A stretch of DNA of 42,897 bases from Candidatus Woesearchaeota archaeon CG10_big_fil_rev_8_21_14_0_10_33_12 (GCA_002762865.1 PCYE01000025.1:1-42897); one strand, 5' to 3'; shown: positions 13,649 through 24,994, counted from the first letter of the stretch. The notes: a model not told the origin generated them from the sequence alone. Numbers and translations are program-made.

Positions 13649-13664
13649 TAGCCCCGCACGGATT
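13649..13664. repeat. tRNA-Gln 3'-end remnant (putative distal att site)
   Basis: TAGCCCCGCACGGATT, identical to 24922-24937, not followed by the rest of a tRNA. Confidence 0.8.
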
Positions 13665-13748
13665 AGGTACCTTCTATGGCCACTTTTTGGGACTACTTGT
13701 TCTCGATGTATCGTTTCACTCTTTAGATAGAACTTAACTCGCCTAGTA

Positions 13749-14252
13749 TTATGAGCAAGATGAATCAAAAAGGCCTATATTTTTAGCATATTCCTTCTCA
13801 AATCCTTTTTTCTTAGCATATTCATATGATAATATCTTACAAGTATTTTCTTCTGGACCAAAATCAATCATGTCGGGTAAAATTTTTTTAAAATTAGTTT
13901 TATCCCATTCTCTAAGAGAAAATTTTCGATGTATAAATTCGTGAATGAATTCACACATGATATACTCTTTAGGTATTCCTTTTTTTATTGCAATCATATT
14001 TATTTTAGACAAATAGTTAGCATATCTTTGTGGCTTTGTTAAATTGAGTATAGAAGGGGGTAAATTATCAAGACTTAAACCAGCTTTTCGTATTTCTATG
14101 TTTATTTCTGAGATTTCATATTCAAAATATTCAAATGAATCAGAATCTACTTTTAGAATTTCTTTTGCATTACTATCTAAGATTATTGTTTTTCTATTTT
14201 TTTTAAGATATTCTAATATTATTTGTTCAACTTTTTCATGATTTTTATTCAT
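13749..14252 (-). CDS. HEXXH-containing putative zinc metallopeptidase
   Basis: CEFIHEFIHRKF contains HEFIH; acidic residues downstream (GPEENTCKILSYEYA). Function inferred from the motif only. Confidence 0.6.
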   Translation of the reverse strand: MNKNHEKVEQIILEYLKKNRKTIILDSNAKEILKVDSDSFEYFEYEISEINIEIRKAGLSLDNLPPSILNLTKPQRYANYLSKINMIAIKKGIPKEYIMCEFIHEFIHRKFSLREWDKTNFKKILPDMIDFGPEENTCKILSYEYAKKKGFEKEYAKNIGLFDSSCS

Positions 14253-14282
14253 TGACTTACCACCATGGTATAACTCATACTG

Positions 14283-14741
14283 CTATCGTTTCATATGAAT
14301 TTTTATCTTTTTTTCCATTTCTGTTTTTATGTTCATGCCCCTATGATATTGTTCTTCAAAATCAGTCCTTTTGTACTCCCAATACTTTAGAAGATTATGG
14401 GTAAACACAATCCTTTTTATATTGTATTCAAGGAGTTTATCACTCAAGTCATTACTGATAAATCCCTTTTGTAAACAATCCATAATCAGAGTGTGGTGTC
14501 TATAGCTCTTTTCCCATATCTTGTCAACGTTTGGAGTGCAAGTTAAATGATTCTTACCATATTCTATTGTGTAAATGCATTTGAGGTATATTTCGATGAT
14601 GCTGTTTAAGATTGAAAACGCTTCCAACAAAAAACCATAGTTGTATGCTTTCATGATATGGTCATCCACAGTGGAAGCTGATAATAATTCAATATCCTTT
14701 TTAATACAACTGTTGGAATTAATTGAGTTTTCAGATACCAT
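14283..14741 (-). CDS. HEPN-like helical protein
   Basis: All-helical 152 aa with KRIVFTHNLLKY (R-x4-H, HEPN-type signature). Confidence 0.5.
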   Translation of the reverse strand: MVSENSINSNSCIKKDIELLSASTVDDHIMKAYNYGFLLEAFSILNSIIEIYLKCIYTIEYGKNHLTCTPNVDKIWEKSYRHHTLIMDCLQKGFISNDLSDKLLEYNIKRIVFTHNLLKYWEYKRTDFEEQYHRGMNIKTEMEKKIKIHMKR

Positions 14742-14862
14742 AATTCATTACCTAACTTAAACTATGTTTTATTAAAGTATATATATAAATTTACTCTTTT
14801 TATCGCCAAAAAAATCATATGCCTCAATCGGTAATAGATAGTTTTTGTTAGTTTTTAGGGGA

Positions 14863-15807
14863 TTATAAAGAATTATCAAGCATATTATTAAAAAAATCCT
14901 TATTTGAAAATATTGCTTTTTGAAATATCTCAACTAATACATAATTTCTTGCCATTATTGCAGTAAGAGCTTTTAATAAAATCACCGTTCTTGTTTCGTC
15001 AACTTGGTCTAAAGTGTATTTGTCTCTTTCTTCATAAGTACAGTGGCATATATCATTTCTTAGTTTATTATATGGAGAATCCCATAACAAAGGGAATTCT
15101 TTTTGAAAGTAATCATAAATTTCCTTATTATTTTTAATATCTTTAAAAGGGGTACCAGTTAATAGTCTATAGTATTCTTCCAATATCTTAAGGTAAATTT
15201 CCATAGCATCAGAATATAACCTTAGAGAGATATATTCTTTTAATTTAATATCCAATTTTTCTTTTTTTTCATTAATCTCTCGATATTTTTCAATAGCGTT
15301 AAGAACTTGATTGATTCTTTGAGGGTCTATACCTATTTTTTCATTAAGTTTTTTATTTACTTCAGGGGTAATTTTTTTTGTAAGTTGTTTAAATGTTTCT
15401 TCTCTAAAACTAGATGAATCATTAAAATCAGGAATGTTATTTTTATCTAATCCAAATGCTTTCCATATATATCCAGGTTCTATCTTTTCTCCTTTATCTT
15501 GCTTTTCTTTTATTTTCAATAAATCTTCTTTATTAATGCCTAAAGGTTCAGCTATTGTAAAAATATCCAGTTTTTTCCTAACAATATCCTTAAATATTGG
15601 AAGATATGTTTTATAAATATGTGTTTTCTCCAATGGCTCCCCAGTTATTTTATCTTTTCCTGCATCAATGAGTTTCAAGTCCATTCCAATAAAAAGACCA
15701 AACAAAGATAAATTAAGCCCTTTTGGATTTTCTTTTAATATATCATTAAATTTCTCAACATTTTTTAATTGATCTTCTTCTGATAAATATTTTTTCATCT
15801 CATCCAT
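14863..15807 (-). CDS. hypothetical protein with C-terminal HEPN-like module
   Basis: SPYNKLRNDICHCTYEER contains RNxxxH. ATG at 15807 preferred over TTG at 15828 because of the TATA position. Confidence 0.6.
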   Translation of the reverse strand: MDEMKKYLSEEDQLKNVEKFNDILKENPKGLNLSLFGLFIGMDLKLIDAGKDKITGEPLEKTHIYKTYLPIFKDIVRKKLDIFTIAEPLGINKEDLLKIKEKQDKGEKIEPGYIWKAFGLDKNNIPDFNDSSSFREETFKQLTKKITPEVNKKLNEKIGIDPQRINQVLNAIEKYREINEKKEKLDIKLKEYISLRLYSDAMEIYLKILEEYYRLLTGTPFKDIKNNKEIYDYFQKEFPLLWDSPYNKLRNDICHCTYEERDKYTLDQVDETRTVILLKALTAIMARNYVLVEIFQKAIFSNKDFFNNMLDNSL

Positions 15808-15852
15808 AATCAAACTAATGAATTTCAAACTTTAAATATATTACCAATATTA

Positions 15853-15904
15853 TTCAGAAACTCCATAAAAATGCCTTATTTTAAGACAAAAAGCTTATTA
15901 AAAT
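15853..15904. repeat. island intergenic repeat, copy 1
   Basis: TTCAGAAACTCCATAAAAATGCCTTATTTTAAGACAAAAAGCTTATTAAAAT, aligns ungapped to copies 2 and 3. Confidence 0.8.
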
Positions 15905-15917
15905 TAAATCTTTTAAA

Positions 15918-16286
15918 TTATCTTTTTCTTTCAAAAGCTTCTCTCAAAGTAGGAATACTTTCTTGAAATTTTCTTTCTTCAGTAGCTGATGTTGTCCTTA
16001 CGTGTATATCACTTGGAAAACGTGTTTCACCACTATAAACTTTTCTATGTTCTGGGTATTTTTTTCTATAATAACCTATCATTATAAAACCAATTATCAT
16101 AAATACAATACCTAAAACCATGCTAGGATAATAAAGAAAGGAATTTGGTGCTTTTATTCCATAATTTTTTGCTGATAAAATAAATGAATAACCTAAAAAA
16201 AATGTTCCAAGTAAGATAGATATTATAAATGATGCAATAAGCTTTAATCTATTAAAAAGTTCTCTCAAATAGTTTGAAAAACTCAT
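15918..16286 (-). CDS. small membrane protein
   Basis: Two hydrophobic segments (LIASFIISILLGTFFLGYSFIL; MVLGIVFMIIGFIMIGYY) plus a charged cytosolic-type tail. Confidence 0.6.
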   Translation of the reverse strand: MSFSNYLRELFNRLKLIASFIISILLGTFFLGYSFILSAKNYGIKAPNSFLYYPSMVLGIVFMIIGFIMIGYYRKKYPEHRKVYSGETRFPSDIHVRTTSATEERKFQESIPTLREAFERKR

Positions 16287-16341
16287 TATATTAAATTAAT
16301 TGGTTTATAAGTATAAAAATCTTACTATATTTTATTTTTTG

Positions 16342-16704
16342 TTATAATTGTATTTCTATAATTGTTTTTTCAAAACTTAGATTGAATAAAAGGATAAGTG
16401 CTATAATAAGGATAATTGTCATAACAACAAAAAAAATAAATTTAAATCTTTGAGATTTATTTTTAAGAAGTTCCATTAAAAGTGCTGACCATAAACTTAA
16501 AACTATTCCACAAAGTATGGTTAAAAGAAGTGATAACCAAAATGGCAGGGTAATTAATTGTGTAATCCTAGCATTAGCATTTACACTTTCACCTGTTGTT
16601 ATTTGGTCATGAACATTTCTTTCTGTAAGGTTTTGTCCTAAAACTAAGAATGGGAATAGTAAAAGAAAGCATATCAACAGTACGAATAAGAATTTTTTTC
16701 TCAT
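16342..16704 (-). CDS. membrane protein with N-terminal signal-like helix
   Basis: MRKKFLFVLLICFLLLFPFLVLG followed by two further hydrophobic helices. Confidence 0.55.
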   Translation of the reverse strand: MRKKFLFVLLICFLLLFPFLVLGQNLTERNVHDQITTGESVNANARITQLITLPFWLSLLLTILCGIVLSLWSALLMELLKNKSQRFKFIFFVVMTIILIIALILLFNLSFEKTIIEIQL

Positions 16705-16781
16705 TTTAACCCTTAAATCACACTTTATTGGTATCCTTAAAATTTTAAAATATAAAAACCTTTGTATATAAATCAAAATCT

Positions 16782-16833
16782 TTCAGAAATGCCGTAAAAA
16801 TGCCTTAAATAAAGCCACAAAGATTTAATAAAC
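16782..16833. repeat. island intergenic repeat, copy 2
   Basis: TTCAGAAATGCCGTAAAAATGCCTTAAATAAAGCCACAAAGATTTAATAAAC; contains AATGCCGTAAA AATGCCTTAAA in tandem. Confidence 0.85.
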
Positions 16834-16898
16834 ACAAATTGCTTCTCCAATAGTAAATATACAAAATTTATTTAAATTAAGAGATATTATAATGCTTA

Positions 16899-17756
16899 AT
16901 GGCAAAAAAATTAACCAAAAAGAATAAAAAAGAAATGAATGATTCAACAGAGGGTTTAATTACAAAAGGAATTTCTTTAGTAACATTAGGCAAACATGAA
17001 GAAGCTATTAAATGTTTTGATAAAGCTTTAGAGATTAATCCTAATCACGCACTTCCTTGGTATAATAAAGGATTTTCTTTAACAAAATTAGGTAAATATA
17101 AAGAAGCTATTGAATGTTATGATAAAGCTTTAAAGATTAATCCTAATTTTGAATTTGCTTGGAATAATAAAGGAGTTTCTTTAGCAAGATTATGCAAATA
17201 TGATGAAGCTATTCAATGTTATGATAAAGCTTTAGACATTAACCCTAATCTTCATTCTGCTTGGGATAGTAGAGGAGGTTCTTTGTTTGGGTTAGGTAAG
17301 TATAAAGAATCAATAGAATGCTATGATAAAGCTTTAGAAATCAATTCTGATGATGAAATTACTTGGGATAATAAAGGAGGTTCTTTAGCAAGATTATGCA
17401 AATATGATGAAGCTATTCAATGTTATGATAAAGCTTTAGACATTAACCCTAATCTTCATTCTGCTTGGGATAATAAAGGTCGTTCTTTGTTTGGGTTAGG
17501 CAAATATAAAGAATCAATTAAGTGTTTTGATAAAGCTTTAAAAATCAATTCTAATAATGAACATGCTTGGCGATTTAGAGGAGGTTCTTTGTTTGGATTA
17601 GGTAAGTATAAAGAATCAATAGAATGCTATGATAAAGCTTTAAAGATTAATCCTAATGATAAACTCGCTTGGTATAATAAAGGAATTTCTTTAGAAAAAT
17701 TAGGCAAAAATGATGAAGCTAAACGATGTTTTGATAAAGCACTTAAGCTTGGATAA
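16899..17756 (+). CDS. tetratricopeptide repeat protein
   Basis: Tandem 34-aa repeats (AWxNKGxSLxxLGKYxEAIxCYDKALxINPN). Confidence 0.9.
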   Translation: MAKKLTKKNKKEMNDSTEGLITKGISLVTLGKHEEAIKCFDKALEINPNHALPWYNKGFSLTKLGKYKEAIECYDKALKINPNFEFAWNNKGVSLARLCKYDEAIQCYDKALDINPNLHSAWDSRGGSLFGLGKYKESIECYDKALEINSDDEITWDNKGGSLARLCKYDEAIQCYDKALDINPNLHSAWDNKGRSLFGLGKYKESIKCFDKALKINSNNEHAWRFRGGSLFGLGKYKESIECYDKALKINPNDKLAWYNKGISLEKLGKNDEAKRCFDKALKLG

Positions 17757-17786
17757 ATAAGTATTTCATCACTCTATTTAATTTAA

Positions 17787-19103
17787 CTACTCTTCAATCT
17801 TTTTTATTAAATCATCCATATCAACTGGCCGAAATTTCGTCAATTCAGTAGATATGTTTATTCTCTTATTCTTTTTGTCTATGAATGGATATTTTTCTAA
17901 TTTATTGTTGTGGTGATGTCCGCAAATTGCCCAACCATCCCAATCTGAAGGTATATTGGCAGGGTCATGGACAAGGTAAAATTTTTTGCCTTTGTATTCA
18001 ATTATTAGGTTATCAAACACATTCTTTGTTCTGGATATTTTATCGTGTTGATTTCTTTCTTCAGAAGGTTCATAAGAAAAACCTCTAATGAAAAATATGT
18101 CACCATTTAGTTTTTTCATCCAGTAATCTGCTGGTCTGCTTGGGATTTGAATATCTTTATTCTTACCAAAACTCATATCGCCAAGGAAATAAACCCTATC
18201 CCTTCTGCTGACTATATTATTCCAATTATCAATAAGAGTTTTATTCATATCTTCTGTATTAAGAAAAGGTCTTTTGCAATATTTGATTATATTTGTGTGG
18301 TCTAGATGTAAATCTGAGGTGATATATGTTTTAGGTTTCGCAAAAATATCTTTTATTTTAGAAATAATGTTCTTCCTTGGAACTCTTAAACCAGAACCCA
18401 TAAAATCTTCAGGGTTAAACCTGCCTTCAAAATACGCCTTTAATAAGTCAGAAGTTTTTGAGTAAATATCTTTGCTTTTAGCTAATTTCCTATCTAACAA
18501 TCTTCTTAAGAGGAAATCATATTCTTTGAGGATTTTTTGTCCTTTAAGCAAAGTCAACCTAACTACAACATGGTCAAAATTAAGTTTTGGTTTGTTTTTA
18601 ATATAATCTTTAATTCTCTTAAACTTATCTTCTTCTAGTTTCATAGCAATTGTTGCATGAAATGAGAAATCTTTTTCATAATCAAATGGTTTAAGTTCAC
18701 AATATTTTCCCAAAGTTTTAGATAAATTCCATCTAAAGTTATCTAACTCCTTACTTGGCATTATATCCACAAAAACTACATTGCTATGTTCAAATGTGTT
18801 AAATCCTTCAACTTTGAATTTCATCAAAGGATTGTCAACACATAATTGTCTAAAATCTCGAATTAATCTTTCTTCATCATTAGTGTAAAATGGGCCTGCT
18901 AAACTGATATGCGGAACTGCTCTTCTTGTTGTTAATCGGAATTTCTTTTTAACATCATGGATTAACTCTTTGATTTCGTGTTTTGCTTTTCCATGAAACC
19001 TAAATTCTATTAAATAATTTAACTCTCCATTTTCAGAATGTTTTTTCCTAACATGTCTTCTTCTATGATGAATGTGTTTCTTTCTTGTTCTAACTCTAGC
19101 CAT
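17787..19103 (-). CDS. 2H phosphoesterase (2'-5' RNA ligase/LigT-like) fused to calcineurin-type metallophosphoesterase
   Basis: N-terminal HISLAGPF and FHATIAMKL (two HxS/T motifs); C-terminal TSDLHLDH, NWNNIVSRRDRVYFLGDMSFG, ICGHHHN. ATG at 19103 preferred (TATA TTTTATATAAAA reverse strand ~19121-19137). Confidence 0.8.
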   Translation of the reverse strand: MARVRTRKKHIHHRRRHVRKKHSENGELNYLIEFRFHGKAKHEIKELIHDVKKKFRLTTRRAVPHISLAGPFYTNDEERLIRDFRQLCVDNPLMKFKVEGFNTFEHSNVVFVDIMPSKELDNFRWNLSKTLGKYCELKPFDYEKDFSFHATIAMKLEEDKFKRIKDYIKNKPKLNFDHVVVRLTLLKGQKILKEYDFLLRRLLDRKLAKSKDIYSKTSDLLKAYFEGRFNPEDFMGSGLRVPRKNIISKIKDIFAKPKTYITSDLHLDHTNIIKYCKRPFLNTEDMNKTLIDNWNNIVSRRDRVYFLGDMSFGKNKDIQIPSRPADYWMKKLNGDIFFIRGFSYEPSEERNQHDKISRTKNVFDNLIIEYKGKKFYLVHDPANIPSDWDGWAICGHHHNNKLEKYPFIDKKNKRINISTELTKFRPVDMDDLIKKIEE

Positions 19104-19158
19104 TTCATTAGACAATATAAGGTTTTATATAAAAATATTACTATCAATCCTTAAATCC

Positions 19159-19210
19159 TTCAGAAATGCCGTAAGAACGCCTTATTTTAAGTCACAAAGT
19201 TTATTAAAAG
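19159..19210. repeat. island intergenic repeat, copy 3
   Basis: TTCAGAAATGCCGTAAGAACGCCTTATTTTAAGTCACAAAGTTTATTAAAAG. Confidence 0.85.
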
Positions 19211-19382
19211 AAAAATAAGTAGGATACACTATAAACCTTGTTAGCAACCAGCTTATAGGAGAACATTAAATTACAGAAATCACATTATACATCTCTCTCA
19301 TGTAAGTCTTTTACAGCCCAATCAAACAAAAACCATTTTTTATTATAAATATAGGTTAAGAAAAAGACCTACAAAACAAACA

Positions 19383-19390
19383 TTTATATA
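19383..19390 (+). promoter_or_regulatory. TATA box (TTTATATA) of the biosynthetic-like operon
   Basis: Last base is 27 nt before the ATG at 19417; same 27-nt spacing as TTTATATA 24244-24251 to ATG 24278. Confidence 0.65.
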
Positions 19391-19416
19391 TTATTAACTC
19401 TAGTGTAGTAATTAAT

Positions 19417-19509
19417 ATGAAAAATCAAAGTATTTGGAATTTCAAATACATGTGGGGTCAAATGGTTGGTTTGAGTTATAGACTAAGTGATGGAGATAAG
19501 GTAAGTTAA
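19417..19509 (+). CDS. 30-aa peptide ORF, first cistron of the operon (candidate precursor or leader peptide)
   Basis: MKNQSIWNFKYMWGQMVGLSYRLSDGDKVS*; positioned for near-leaderless translation; stop is 1 nt before the next ATG. Confidence 0.55.
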   Translation: MKNQSIWNFKYMWGQMVGLSYRLSDGDKVS

Positions 19510-19510
19510 A

Positions 19511-20890
19511 ATGATAAATGAGTTAGGATACTTAGGTTTAGGAACAAGCAATAAAAGAAATGAAACCAGATGGGACCATCTTCAACTTAGAAAGTTAATG
19601 AATGAGAAATGGGAATCAATAAGAGAGTTCTATAAGAAATCACCAAAAGAGATTAATGACTTTCAATTTAAAAGAATAAAAGAATTAGTTAAACATGCCT
19701 ATGAAACAGTCGATTTGTACAAAGAAAAATATACTAAAGAGGGCTTTGAGCCAGAAGATTTTAAGACATGGAAAGATTTTCAGAAATTGCCAATTTTAAC
19801 AAAAGAGGAATTAATAGAAGGTTTTCCTGAAAAAACAATTAGTAAAGATTATGGAACAGAATTCACAACAAGAAGCTCTGGATCAAGTGGTAAATTTGTT
19901 ACTCTTGCTGTATCTCCTAAAGCAGTTTATATTGACACAATTCAGGGAGCAAGACAATTTTACTTTCAAAGTGGAGAAGAATATGATTCTACAGACTTAG
20001 CATTGTTTATTTATACTAGCCCTTGGTGGGTTTCTTCAATTGATAGCGAGTATCATAGTGAGTTCTTACCAACAACTACTCATGTTGAAGGTGCTATAAA
20101 AACAATCAAAGACTTAAGACCAAAAGTATTATCAACTTATCCTACCTACTTAAAAGAATTAATGAGTGCTGGAGCTGATCTTAAAGGTTCAGGAGTCAAC
20201 CTTGTTGTTATTCATTCAGAGCAGTCAACTGAAAAAGAAAGAAAAGAACTTTCAGATTTTTTCAAAGTAAAGGTATTAGATGAATTTAGTAGCGAAGAGC
20301 TTACACGGATTGCTTTGGAATGCCCATATAGAAAATACCATATTGAGGAGGATTCTTGTTATATTGAAGTTGTTGATCCACAAACAAAAAAAGTATTAGA
20401 TAATAACAGAAGAGGACTTATTATAGGTACAAATTTATTAAATGAGGCTACACCAATAATAAGGTATTCTCAAGGGGATATAGGAACAATTAAACAAGTA
20501 AACAACTGTATATGTGGAAGTAATTTTAGGCTGATTGAATCTCCGCAAGGGAGGTATATGGATTCTATTACTGTTGGAAATAAAGTTATTCCTGCAAGTT
20601 GTTTTATGGATTTAGCATACAATTGGTATTTAGAATTAGATGTGCCAATACATGGGTTAAAATACCAAATTGTTCAAAATAGGAAAGGAAACATTGATAC
20701 ATTTTTAGTTCAAGGAAAATTTGGATTGAGTCCTTCTCAAAAAAGGAGAATACAAGAAAGCTTTTACCAATTAGTTCCAAAAAGCATACAAGTTAAGGTT
20801 CATATAGTTAATGAAACACCTGTAAAAACTGGAATAAAATATAGGCCAATAATTTCATTAATAAATAAAAATTGTGAATCAGTAAAATGA
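19511..20890 (+). CDS. PaaK/CapK-like adenylate-forming enzyme
   Basis: FQFKRIKELVKHAYETVDLYKEKY...FQKLPILTKEEL...TTRSSGSSGKFVTL...LDEFSSEELTRIALEC...PIIRYSQGDIG: PaaK-family layout. Confidence 0.8.
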   Translation: MINELGYLGLGTSNKRNETRWDHLQLRKLMNEKWESIREFYKKSPKEINDFQFKRIKELVKHAYETVDLYKEKYTKEGFEPEDFKTWKDFQKLPILTKEELIEGFPEKTISKDYGTEFTTRSSGSSGKFVTLAVSPKAVYIDTIQGARQFYFQSGEEYDSTDLALFIYTSPWWVSSIDSEYHSEFLPTTTHVEGAIKTIKDLRPKVLSTYPTYLKELMSAGADLKGSGVNLVVIHSEQSTEKERKELSDFFKVKVLDEFSSEELTRIALECPYRKYHIEEDSCYIEVVDPQTKKVLDNNRRGLIIGTNLLNEATPIIRYSQGDIGTIKQVNNCICGSNFRLIESPQGRYMDSITVGNKVIPASCFMDLAYNWYLELDVPIHGLKYQIVQNRKGNIDTFLVQGKFGLSPSQKRRIQESFYQLVPKSIQVKVHIVNETPVKTGIKYRPIISLINKNCESVK

Positions 20891-22071
20891 TAAATGAATC
20901 TAAAGAAGCATTGGGACTTATTGAAAAAAAACTTAAAGAATTGAGAGATGAAGTACCTCCTCGGAACTTTAATCATAAAAAACCTGCTGAAGTTGAAATA
21001 AACCAATTTTGGTTTGAAAATAAAACTATAGATAGAATAATGGTTGTTTTAAGAGCAACAGGATGTAGTCATTATAAGTTGAAGCAAGGCTGTTCAATGT
21101 GTGCTCATTATAATGCAACTACTGAAACTCCTATCAGTGCAGAAGATTATATTACACAATGGAAAAACGTAGTTAATGGAAGTGAAATTGAAAAGAAAAC
21201 TGATTTTGATATTAATAATTATCCGGTGCTTTGCTTATATAATTTAGGAAGTTTCCTTAATCCCGAAGAAGTTCCAATTAAGGCAATGGAAGAAATATTT
21301 GCTTCAATTAATTCATTGCCAGGTATCAAAAAAACAATTATAGAATCTAGAGCAGAATATGTAAACCCAGAGGTACTTGAAAAAATAAGAAAGGTAAATA
21401 ATGGACTTATTGAGGTAGGAATTGGTCTTGAATCAATAAATGATGATGTAAGAGAATTATGCCATCATAAAAATATGCCTGATTTAGCTGTATTTTTAAA
21501 AGCAATTAAAACATTGCATCAATATGATTTTAAAGCTTTGACTTATGTTAACCAAAAACCATCTTTTTTAACTGAAAAAGAATCTATAGATGATGCTATA
21601 GAAACAACAATATTTGCATTTGACAATGGAACTGATGCTGTGTCTATTGAACCAACATCATTACAAGCAAATTCACTTACAGATTACCTATATAGGATAG
21701 GAATGTATAGGGTTCCTTGGTTATGGAGTGTTATTGAAGTTGTTAGAGGTATAACTGAAAAGGTAGGAAGTAATTTAGACTTAAGGATAGGGGGATATTT
21801 TGAGGAAGAAATTTTAAGTGGAAGTCAAGGAATTGCATCTGGAAGCGAAAGAAATGAATTATTTCCTTATACAACTTCTGGAAACTGTGCTAAGTGTAAT
21901 AATAGGATAATTGATGCAATAAAGAGATATAACAAAACTTATGATTCAAACATATTGTTTGATGAAAAACCATGTGAATCTTGCTTTTCTATTTGGAAAT
22001 CTACACTTACAGTTAATGATTCAAGAAGTATACCAAAAAGGATAATAGATTCCTTAGGAGGCATTAAATGA
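20887..22071 (+). CDS. radical SAM protein related to archaeosine synthase RaSEA/Elp3-type enzymes
   Basis: MVVLRATGCSHYKLKQGCSMCAHYN (Cx8Cx2C), GIGLESINDDVRE, C-terminal CAKC...CESC. Confidence 0.8.
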   Translation: MINESKEALGLIEKKLKELRDEVPPRNFNHKKPAEVEINQFWFENKTIDRIMVVLRATGCSHYKLKQGCSMCAHYNATTETPISAEDYITQWKNVVNGSEIEKKTDFDINNYPVLCLYNLGSFLNPEEVPIKAMEEIFASINSLPGIKKTIIESRAEYVNPEVLEKIRKVNNGLIEVGIGLESINDDVRELCHHKNMPDLAVFLKAIKTLHQYDFKALTYVNQKPSFLTEKESIDDAIETTIFAFDNGTDAVSIEPTSLQANSLTDYLYRIGMYRVPWLWSVIEVVRGITEKVGSNLDLRIGGYFEEEILSGSQGIASGSERNELFPYTTSGNCAKCNNRIIDAIKRYNKTYDSNILFDEKPCESCFSIWKSTLTVNDSRSIPKRIIDSLGGIK

Positions 22072-23156
22072 AGATTTCATATTTGTCTTGTGATATTTGT
22101 GGTTTCAAAGGAAAAAACCCTACAGAACACCAACACAAAGAATTAGAAATAGGAGGGGTTCCAATGAATATCTGGACTCTTGTTTATTCATTACCTAAAT
22201 CTTTGAAATTGAATGATTACTGTAAGGGAATTGCAAGATATAAAGAATATATTCCATTTGAGATAAGGGAAAATGTGGTAGATGAAGAATGTAACACCCC
22301 CATGATTAAACTAAAAGAAAATATTTTTTTAAAAGATGAGAGTCAAAATCCAACTCACAGTTTTAAAGATAGAGGCATAGTCATGTTAGTTTCTGATGCC
22401 TTAAAAGCAGGCAAGAAAAAAATAGCAATTCCATCAACAGGTAATGCAGCAATATCTCTTGGGTATTATGCAAATAAAGCAGGATTAGAATCAATTGTAT
22501 TTATTCCAGAAGACACTGCTTTGTCAAAGAAAGAGCAAATAAAAAAGCGTTCTACAATAATTTATGATAAAGATTTAGTCAAAAGTTATGAACATTTTTT
22601 TGATTTTTGTAGAACAGATGATTCTGTTTATAATGGGTTTCCAGTGACTAATCTTCCTTATGCGCAAGGTATAAAGACTATATCTTATGAAATATTTCTT
22701 CAGATGGGTGATGTACCAGAGTGGATTATTATTCCTGTAGGAAGCGGCGGCAATGTTGTGGCTCAATATAATGGATTTAAAGATTTAATAAATATGGGAT
22801 TAACTGATAAGATACCTAGGTTTGCAACTGTCCAAATCAAAGGCGCTGACCCAATAACATTAGGTTATCAAACAAAACAATATGATGATATAATCCTTAT
22901 TGAAGATTCAATAAAATCAAAAGCCGAAGCAATTGCATCGGATACTTGTTTTAATTATTTTAAGATTATGAGCATACTTAATGAAACGAGGGGGATTGCA
23001 ATTTCAGTTACTGATAAAGATATTGAAGAGAATCAACATGCACGTTGGCTTGAATTCTCTTCACAATCCATTTTTCCAGCCCTTGATATGCTTATAAACA
23101 ATACTAACAAGAAAGATACAATTGTTCTAGTAGGAACAGCAATAGATAGAGGGTGA
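22068..23156 (+). CDS. threonine-synthase-like PLP-dependent enzyme (fold type II)
   Basis: N-terminal CDIC; LKDESQNPTHSFKDRGIVMLV; PSTGNAAISLGYYANKAG; IPVGSGGNVVAQYNGF. Confidence 0.85.
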   Translation: MKISYLSCDICGFKGKNPTEHQHKELEIGGVPMNIWTLVYSLPKSLKLNDYCKGIARYKEYIPFEIRENVVDEECNTPMIKLKENIFLKDESQNPTHSFKDRGIVMLVSDALKAGKKKIAIPSTGNAAISLGYYANKAGLESIVFIPEDTALSKKEQIKKRSTIIYDKDLVKSYEHFFDFCRTDDSVYNGFPVTNLPYAQGIKTISYEIFLQMGDVPEWIIIPVGSGGNVVAQYNGFKDLINMGLTDKIPRFATVQIKGADPITLGYQTKQYDDIILIEDSIKSKAEAIASDTCFNYFKIMSILNETRGIAISVTDKDIEENQHARWLEFSSQSIFPALDMLINNTNKKDTIVLVGTAIDRG

Positions 23157-23160
23157 AAAC

Positions 23161-24186
23161 ATGATAAATAATAGAAAAAAACTTAGGATACATGTTCTTT
23201 ATGGAGGCAACTCGGCTGAAAGACCTGGTTCCATTCTTTCAGGTAAAACAATAGAATCTACATTACGCCGTGCAGGATATGAAAATGTGACAAGATATGA
23301 TATTACTTCAGACTCGGTTTTCAGTTTAGTTTCGAATAAACCTGATTTAGCATTTCTTACGTTCCATGGTGGAATGGGAGAGGATGGAACATTGCAAGCT
23401 CTTTTGGAATTGTTAAGGGTTCCATACACTTCCTCAGGGGTTTCTGCTAGTGCAATTTCTGCAGACAAAGTGTTGTTTAATCGTTTTGTTACTTCTTTAG
23501 GATATAATGCTCCAGACCAGTTTCTTATATCAAGCATAAACAAATTAGAAGAAAAAGACTGGGAATATCCCTTAATAATCAAACCGGTTAAACAAGGATG
23601 TTCTTATGGTGTTTTCCTAGTACAAAATCTTGATGAATTGAAAGAAAGGGCAAATTTTTCATTACAATTTGATGGTAGAATTGTAGTTGAGAAGTATATT
23701 GAGGGGAGGGAGTTTTCCGTTGGAATATTTGAATATCCAAAAACAAAACATCCAATAATTTTACCAATATCAGAAACAAAGTTGTCAAAAGGAATTTTGG
23801 ATTTTGAAACAAAATATCCTGGAGGAGAACATCTATATAAGACAATCATTCCAGCTGAATTAAGTGTTGAAGAAAGAGAACAGCTAGAAGATATGTGTAA
23901 AAATGTGTTTACTAAATTAGATTGTAGAGGTTATGTGAGGATGGATTTAAGATTAGATGTTAAAGGTCAATTTTATTTCTTAGAAAATAACACAATCCCT
24001 GGGATACTGAGTCCAACTGAAAGTGATATCCCAAAAATGTTAAATGTGATGGGAATTTCTTTAGAAAAATTTGTGGATATGATTGTTGAATCAACGCTTA
24101 TACACCATTACCAAAAGAAAAATGTGAATGTTCCAAGTGAAAAAGAAATGGTAAAGTACCTTGGACTAAAACTAGCAGAAGACTAA
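23161..24186 (+). CDS. D-alanine--D-alanine ligase-like ATP-grasp enzyme
   Basis: VLYGGNSAERPGSILSG, FHGGMGEDGTLQALLELLRVPYTSSGVSASAISADK, IIKPVKQGCSYGV, VVEKYIEGREFSVGIF, RMDLRLDVKGQFYFLENNTIPGI. Confidence 0.88.
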   Translation: MINNRKKLRIHVLYGGNSAERPGSILSGKTIESTLRRAGYENVTRYDITSDSVFSLVSNKPDLAFLTFHGGMGEDGTLQALLELLRVPYTSSGVSASAISADKVLFNRFVTSLGYNAPDQFLISSINKLEEKDWEYPLIIKPVKQGCSYGVFLVQNLDELKERANFSLQFDGRIVVEKYIEGREFSVGIFEYPKTKHPIILPISETKLSKGILDFETKYPGGEHLYKTIIPAELSVEEREQLEDMCKNVFTKLDCRGYVRMDLRLDVKGQFYFLENNTIPGILSPTESDIPKMLNVMGISLEKFVDMIVESTLIHHYQKKNVNVPSEKEMVKYLGLKLAED

Positions 24187-24277
24187 ATAAGATAAATTAT
24201 TAAAATAAAATGGATTGTGTATGACTAACTAAAATAAGTAAGATTTATATAATAGAAAGATTAAAGAAATCTGAAAC

Positions 24278-24916
24278 ATGATAATAAAAAATATACCTTT
24301 TATAAATGATAGAAAAGAAAAACAACCTTCTTGTCAGGGACCTCCTACTGTAATGATGGTTTTAAAATTTTTTAGCATTGATATACCTTATTCCAAATTA
24401 TATGAAAAAATTAAATACAAAAAAGGAAAATGGTTTTTTGAAACATATATTGTTGAATTATTGTTTTCTTTTGGAATTTCTTGTAAATACTATAGTGATA
24501 TGCAAATACGAAAAATTGAAAATAGTAAGAAGGAATTTAAAAAAGTAAGCAATCTTGAATTTAATGAGAAAAATAAAAAAAAGATAGATATTCCTCGCTA
24601 TGATTCTGGTATTGTATTTGTATTAAATAATAAACTTTTCGAAAAAAGAAAGATTGATATCAACTTCCTAATTGAACAACTTAAAAAAAGAAAACTTGTT
24701 ATAGCTACAATCAATAGAAATAAATTAACAGGAAATAAGGGTTATAAAGGACATTTTATTCTTATTAAAGGTTTTGATAATAAAAATATTATATGTAATG
24801 ATTGCTATTTAGGTGAAAATATAAAAATACCAATAAATAAATTTAAAGATTCCTTTTATTACCCATCTAATCAGAAAAAGACACATCACATTGTTGTAAT
24901 TGATATTTTAAGTTAA
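24278..24916 (+). CDS. peptidase C39-like cysteine peptidase-fold protein
   Basis: NIPFINDRKEKQPSCQGPPTVMMVLKFF (Cys), GHFILIKGFDNKNIICNDCYLG (His/Asn-Asp). Own TATA box TTTATATA 27 nt upstream. Confidence 0.6.
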   Translation: MIIKNIPFINDRKEKQPSCQGPPTVMMVLKFFSIDIPYSKLYEKIKYKKGKWFFETYIVELLFSFGISCKYYSDMQIRKIENSKKEFKKVSNLEFNEKNKKKIDIPRYDSGIVFVLNNKLFEKRKIDINFLIEQLKKRKLVIATINRNKLTGNKGYKGHFILIKGFDNKNIICNDCYLGENIKIPINKFKDSFYYPSNQKKTHHIVVIDILS

Positions 24917-24921
24917 ATAAT

Positions 24922-24994
24922 TAGCCCCGCACGGATTCGAACCGTGGTCACAAGGTCCAGAGCCTTGTATGATTGGCCACTACACTACGGGGCT
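24922..24994 (-). tRNA. tRNA-Gln (CTG)
   Basis: Reverse complement AGCCCCGTAGTGTAGTGGCCAATCATACAAGGCTCTGGACCTTGTGACCACGGTTCGAATCCGTGCGGGGCT(A); anticodon stem CAAGG CTCTGGA CCTTG. Confidence 0.95.

Follow-up and report, generated by a model that had tools for sequence, protein, structure and literature searches.

A four-enzyme operon with a RaSEA-like radical SAM gene, putative biosynthetic cargo of a tRNA-Gln island in a woesearchaeote

Background

Archaeosine synthesis provides the closest described parallel to the locus reported here, in that ArcS attaches lysine and its complex partner RaSEA converts the product (PMC11298593). For the other enzymes of the locus, the nearest described groups are PaaK, F390 synthetase and DVU_1553-type ligases, threonine and cysteate synthases, and DdlB, VanA and natural-product Ddl-like ligases. 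For its genomic setting, they are the additive flexible islands at tRNA-Lys in Ca. Methylopumilus (PMC10872708) and the Islander tDNA islands (PMC4383910), in which a regenerated tRNA gene is accompanied by a displaced fragment, cargo varies at one tRNA, and apparent tandem copies occur.

Specialized metabolism in archaea with tiny genomes is little known. The window analyzed here (i.e., the whole stretch of 42,897 nt) comes from a woesearchaeote whose genome assembly, hereafter the host genome, comprises 1.05 Mb in 53 contigs and is 93.7% complete; its size and gene content point to a DPANN-type archaeon. It holds a compact, testable operon of four genes in an island at a tRNA-Gln gene, and this mapped exchange site points to where further such operons may sit in the genus.

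Results and discussion

An operon of four coupled enzyme genes

Four genes follow each other closely on the plus strand, encoding a PaaK-like AMP-forming ligase (gene 1; 19511-20890, 459 aa), a RaSEA-like radical SAM enzyme (gene 2; 20887-22071, 394 aa), a PLP enzyme of the threonine-synthase fold (gene 3; 22068-23156, 362 aa), and a Ddl-like ATP-grasp ligase (gene 4; 23161-24186, 341 aa). Genes 1 and 2 and genes 2 and 3 share ATGA overlaps (at 20887 and 22068, respectively), and a gap of 4 nt separates genes 3 and 4. An ORF check returned these reading frames, coordinates, overlaps and gap exactly as an earlier note on this DNA had given them, and the coupled spacing bears out its view that the four enzymes are encoded by one coupled operon, i.e., a single transcription unit.

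A perfect TATA box, TTTATATA (19383-19390, plus strand), is centered 30 nt 5' of position 19417, so that the operon mRNA probably begins at about 19413-19417 and leaves gene 1 a leader of 94 nt. The C39-like papain-fold gene that lies downstream in the same island (24278-24916, plus strand) has its own TATA box (24244-24251) with the same 30-nt spacing to its start, and is probably a separate transcription unit.

The leader is filled by a 30-aa ORF (19417-19509, plus strand) that begins where a leaderless transcript would and stops 1 nt before the ATG of gene 1, as previously claimed. Its codon usage resembles non-coding sequence, and it is probably no gene: no 30-codon stretch of the genes in the window scores as low as its codon log-likelihood of -5.0 (their mean is +4.8), a value usual for wrong frames, of which 71% score at least as high. 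No counterpart was found upstream of the one orthologous operon (L005; see below), and the predicted RNA fold of the leader is ordinary, no better than that of shuffled sequences (z -0.45). The 30-aa ORF is thus likelier to have arisen by chance in the 94-nt leader, or to serve a regulatory role there, than to encode the precursor of a product, and the suggestion that the peptide is a gene or precursor did not survive the codon test and this comparison.

Enzyme families of the four genes

Profile and PDB matches upheld all four family calls of the earlier note (PaaK-like, RaSEA-like, PALP/threonine-synthase fold and Ddl-like), and the catalytic motifs, as read from the sequence, are intact. 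Gene 1 matched TIGR02155 with an E value of 5.7e-35 and 120.6 bits, far from the PaaK equivalog cut-off of 646.3, and PDB entry 2y4o with an E value of 1.3e-21. Aligned with 2y4o, 2y27 and 4r1l, it retains the core adenylation motifs (SSGSSG loop, FSSEE, RYSQGD and the C-terminal lysine), which places it in the PaaK-like adenylating superfamily. It therefore shares these motifs, and by sequence also the fold, with PaaK, F390 synthetase and DVU_1553-type ligases (2y4o, 4r1l), but stands apart from them in its low score and in its operon partners, the RaSEA-like and PLP genes. Its predicted structure (pLDDT 39) was left unused.

Gene 2 belongs to the radical SAM superfamily, with PF04055 above its cut-off, a partial TIM barrel and a three-cysteine 4Fe-4S motif, CX8CX2C (C60, C69 and C72), that is invariant across 10 sequences. 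Four more near-invariant cysteines form a C-terminal CxxC...CxxC arrangement common to RaSEA. Against the RaSEA profile TIGR01210, it scored 205.3 bits, under the curated cut-off of 212.15, and its L005 ortholog 191.7 bits. An AlphaFold model (pTM 0.79) had Elp3 and lysine 2,3-aminomutase as best PDB matches, with modest TM scores of 0.37-0.44; the model is usable, and these matches restate just the radical SAM fold. In a tree, gene 2 and the L005 protein formed a fully supported clade of their own, with the deeper branching left unresolved, and a pattern search of viral contigs returned no match as a viral relative. To our knowledge, the sole characterized relative of gene 2 in the RaSEA superfamily acts on tRNA. 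Gene 2 thus resembles the ArcS/RaSEA system (TIGR01210; PMC11298593) in superfamily, CX8CX2C motif, C-terminal cysteines and an adjacent gene for a ligating partner, but it differs in its score below the cut-off, its separate clade, a PaaK-like ligase rather than ArcS as neighbor, and a genome in which no ArcTGT was found.

Gene 3 matched PF00291 (PALP; E 1.1e-39) and carries the PLP lysine in SFKDR, a GSGGN loop and an N-terminal CDxC. Like threonine and cysteate synthases of that family, it keeps the SFKDR lysine and the STGN and glycine-rich loops, but it is set apart from them by the CDxC segment and by a score of 155.3 bits against threonine synthase PRK05638, for which the cut-off is 421. 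No threonine pathway context was seen around it within the window.

Gene 4 scored as a D-Ala-D-Ala ligase against NF002378 (250.6 bits, over the subfamily cut-off of 243) and fell just under the cut-off of TIGR01205 (229.5 against 245.65 bits). With DdlB, VanA and natural-product Ddl-like ligases it shares the ATP-grasp residues and SAER, the first-substrate site for the N-terminal amino acid. It departs from DdlB in the acceptor loop, where the alignment shows a two-residue insertion and ESDIP instead of the Ser-Leu pair of DdlB, and in a Cys aligned with S150 of DdlB. Judging from this alignment, the altered acceptor-carboxylate loop and the Cys make an acceptor other than that of DdlB likely. 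No second match to gene 4 was found in the host genome.

Relatives and gene neighborhoods

The sole orthologous operon found was in an aenigmatarchaeote (L005/L041), with 56% (PaaK-like), 61% (RaSEA-like) and 50% (PLP) identity and the gene order kept. It is split across two contigs that are inferred to be neighbors because their ends meet inside the PLP gene; another radical SAM gene precedes it, no Ddl gene follows the PLP gene, and none was found elsewhere in that genome. The conserved core is of three genes, with the Ddl-like gene an addition seen in the host genome only. RaSEA-like genes more distant from gene 2 are also paired with PaaK-like genes in two further deep lineages of the host's class. 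In one (L015), the two overlap by 11 nt and are accompanied by genes for a NodU-type carbamoyltransferase and a desaturase; in the other (L014), they are divergent at a distance of 53 nt. The PaaK-like proteins of these two lineages are just 20-24% identical to gene 1, so that the pairing may have several origins.

Elsewhere, a RaSEA-like gene adjoins anthranilate-synthase-type genes (L013), two Paenibacillaceae have RaSEA-like genes near NRPS genes, and the Streptomyces plasmids pFRL5 and pFRL3 (L017/L018) carry one in a conserved and apparently natural-product cluster with P450, SHMT, GT9, carbamoyltransferase and heptose-nucleotide genes. The NRPS and Streptomyces neighbors indicate that the family recurs near genes of specialized metabolism. 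A RaSEA-like domain also ends a long protein of 772 aa (L012:8178-10496, in G081), the rest of which is unannotated.

Within the phylum, the radical SAM family of gene 2 is rare, with matches at E <= 1e-25 in 5 of 371 genomes. None of five congeners was found to carry the operon; their genomes are 75-92% complete, so that its absence is not absolute. This agrees with the accessory status proposed in the earlier note, and the neighborhood search that it had called for recovered co-occurrence in the form of the three-gene core and the two additional pairs. Neither of the outcomes it had named as contrary to its view, i.e., genes separately conserved in relatives with housekeeping roles or a match to a characterized pathway, was encountered. 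No described pathway with such an enzyme set was found in the literature or libraries searched, and we know of no assayed enzymes of such a combination.

A tRNA-Gln island with a genus-specific end motif

The operon is carried by an island of 11.3 kb (13649-24937) delimited by a 16-bp direct repeat, TAGCCCCGCACGGATT. One arm is the 3' end (24922-24937) of an intact tRNA-Gln(CTG) gene, the integration target (24922-24994, minus strand), and the other is a displaced copy of that end at the far boundary (13649-13664, plus strand); by base composition, a 15-mer of this repeat would occur by chance about 4e-6 times per window. Just inside the far boundary lies a 21-bp motif, TTCTATGGnnACTTTTTGGGA (13672-13692, plus strand). 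Seven relatives show synteny with the right flank of the island, and in one of them, G274, this extends to the S3Ae gene on the left. Hence the island location given in the earlier note is borne out, with ends now mapped far more precisely.

At the same tRNA-Gln site, G274 has the same repeat pair (L043: 7160 and 14919), which here bounds different cargo, namely genes for a GNAT protein, a class III aminotransferase, a Gfo/Idh protein, a glycosyltransferase, a PTPS/TPR protein, two radical SAM proteins and a kinase-like protein, and TTCTATGGnnACTTTTTGGGA again lies just within the boundary. Among 353 genomes of the order searched, this motif is confined to the host's genus (7 sites in 5 genomes), and 6 of these sites have, exactly 7 nt 5' of the motif, a stretch that matches the tRNA-Gln 3' end in 13-15 of 15 bases. 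In another of these genomes, G395, one copy sits between S3Ae on one side and genes for glycosyltransferase and radical SAM proteins on the other, and a second is flanked on both sides by biosynthetic-like genes, which suggests tandem insertions. Overall, the cargo of congeners at this site is rich in glycosyltransferases, sugar-type aminotransferases, Gfo/Idh oxidoreductases, PIG-L deacetylase and methyltransferases.

With an intact tRNA gene and a displaced 3' fragment in direct orientation, the locus is a tDNA island in the Islander sense, except that Pfam and PHROGs scans found no integrase inside it. Five tyrosine-recombinase matches occur elsewhere in the host genome, and thus integration in trans may be possible. 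The structure of the island suggests that it is mobile. It adds a new, archaeal case to the flexible islands described at tRNA genes (PMC10872708, PMC4383910), which it resembles in all the features outlined above and from which it differs in its archaeal host, genus-specific end motif, biosynthetic-type cargo and the lack of an integrase found inside. An integron cassette array was considered and rejected, as the boundary strands, which would have to fold like attC sites, fold no better than shuffled sequences.

Proposed function of the operon and alternatives

On balance, we favor the explanation that the tRNA-Gln island carries the operon as accessory biosynthetic cargo, and that the operon product is an amino-acid-derived amide or acyl compound. 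In its favor are the coupled spacing, the gene order shared with L005/L041, the RaSEA-like/PaaK-like pairs, the RaSEA-like genes near specialized metabolism in bacteria, the failure to detect the operon in congeners, and island ends that in congeners enclose other biosynthetic-like genes. Counting against it are the single orthologous operon, split and with a radical SAM gene before it in place of a Ddl gene after it, the low identity of the paired PaaK-like proteins to gene 1, and the glycan-type cargo of several congeners. We infer the reactions, substrates, product and step order as follows. The product would be a small amide-linked, amino-acid-derived metabolite or building block, and no ribosomal peptide. 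The PLP enzyme would make a non-standard amino acid by elimination or replacement on an activated hydroxy-amino acid, after which the PaaK-like ligase would adenylate a carboxylic acid and hand it over to a thiol or amine. The RaSEA-like enzyme, as the partner of the ligase, could then perform radical chemistry on the ligated product, in analogy to ArcS and RaSEA, where an amino acid is ligated and then cleaved with its nitrogen staying behind; here the ligase would take the place of ArcS. In the host genome only, the Ddl-like enzyme might add a further amide bond, probably to an acceptor other than D-Ala. The recurrent ligase neighbors of RaSEA-like genes suggest, again by analogy, a ligate-then-cleave logic on small molecules. 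Of the earlier proposal of a modified peptide or short amide-linked product, the accessory and biosynthetic-like character and the lack of a described pathway stand, and the 30-aa precursor falls away. More speculatively, and with considerable doubt on our part, RaSEA-like and PaaK-like enzymes may constitute an undescribed ligate-then-radically-cleave module that adds nitrogen (as amide or amidine) to small molecules, with the genus swapping such operons between species through tRNA-Gln cassettes integrated in trans.

The main rival to biosynthetic cargo of this kind is an amino-acid-derived decoration of a cell-surface glycan or lipid, with the tRNA-Gln site swapping surface cassettes, e.g., for virus evasion or fit to a host surface. 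Since several congeners carry glycan-type cargo at this site, and some flexible genomic islands characteristically hold glycocalyx genes (PMC10872708), the product of the operon could be such a decoration; yet no glycosyltransferase or sugar-nucleotide gene was recognized in the operon or the rest of the island, and we regard this reading as a real but minor possibility. We give hardly any credence to a chance grouping of catabolic or housekeeping genes (aromatic acyl-CoA ligase, threonine synthase, Ddl): every one of the families does include housekeeping members, but equivalog cut-offs are missed by far by the ligase and the PLP enzyme and narrowly by the radical SAM enzyme, the three-gene order is repeated in another archaeal group, and the operon was not detected in congeners.

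If gene 2 encoded a genuine RaSEA, or a relative with tRNA as its substrate, its near-threshold score and RaSEA-type C-terminal cysteines would be accounted for, but its partners are amino-acid and acyl enzymes, it forms a clade of its own with the L005 protein, the only TGT match in the host genome reaches 104.4 bits against an ArcTGT cut-off of 350, and the genome with the ortholog (G525) has ArcTGT and a separate canonical RaSEA (217.7 bits) apart from the operon. Nucleic-acid modification is accordingly very improbable, and identity as the archaeosine RaSEA was rejected on the sub-cut-off score, the negative ArcTGT search of the host genome and the second RaSEA of G525; the earlier label "RaSEA-like" holds for the superfamily and fails for the tRNA-archaeosine enzyme. 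A RiPP pathway, in which the radical SAM enzyme and the ligases would act on the 30-aa peptide as a precursor before its cleavage by the C39-like protein, draws on the position of the ORF at the expected transcription start next to gene 1 and on the C39-like gene downstream. The conserved precursor peptide gene that marks a RiPP cluster is missing, however, given the wrong-frame-like codons and the lack of a counterpart in L005, on which this reading was dropped, and the C39-like gene has a TATA box of its own; we consider it extremely unlikely.

Additional features of the island and its genus

A second copy of TTCTATGGnnACTTTTTGGGA in the host genome (L063, contig C32, 4457-4477) follows a tRNA-3'-like stretch, AATCCCGCACGGATT, with no tRNA-Gln found nearby, and is possibly a second integration site or a relic. 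In G274, the tRNA-Gln at L043:7070-7175 appears to be interrupted by an intron-like insertion; ARAGORN made no call there, though the flanking tRNA sequence is present. Within the island, a 90-nt intergenic repeat occurs in three copies (15821-15910, 16750-16839 and 19127-19216; 60-72% identity to the reference copy), each located upstream of a gene on the minus strand. The block TTATTTTAAG(C/T)CACAAAG occurs both in these repeats and in the island-end region of G395 (L064, L065), so that the repeats may represent former internal boundaries of the island or a shared promoter element. The island also encodes a TPR protein of similar 102-nt repeats (16899-17756) and, on the minus strand (17787-19103), a 2H (2'-5' RNA ligase-like) phosphoesterase domain fused to a phage-type phosphoesterase domain (PHROG 547). 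On another contig of the host genome (L072, contig C46), a genus-conserved tyrosine recombinase is followed by genes that, by eye, look like WbqC and PIG-L types.
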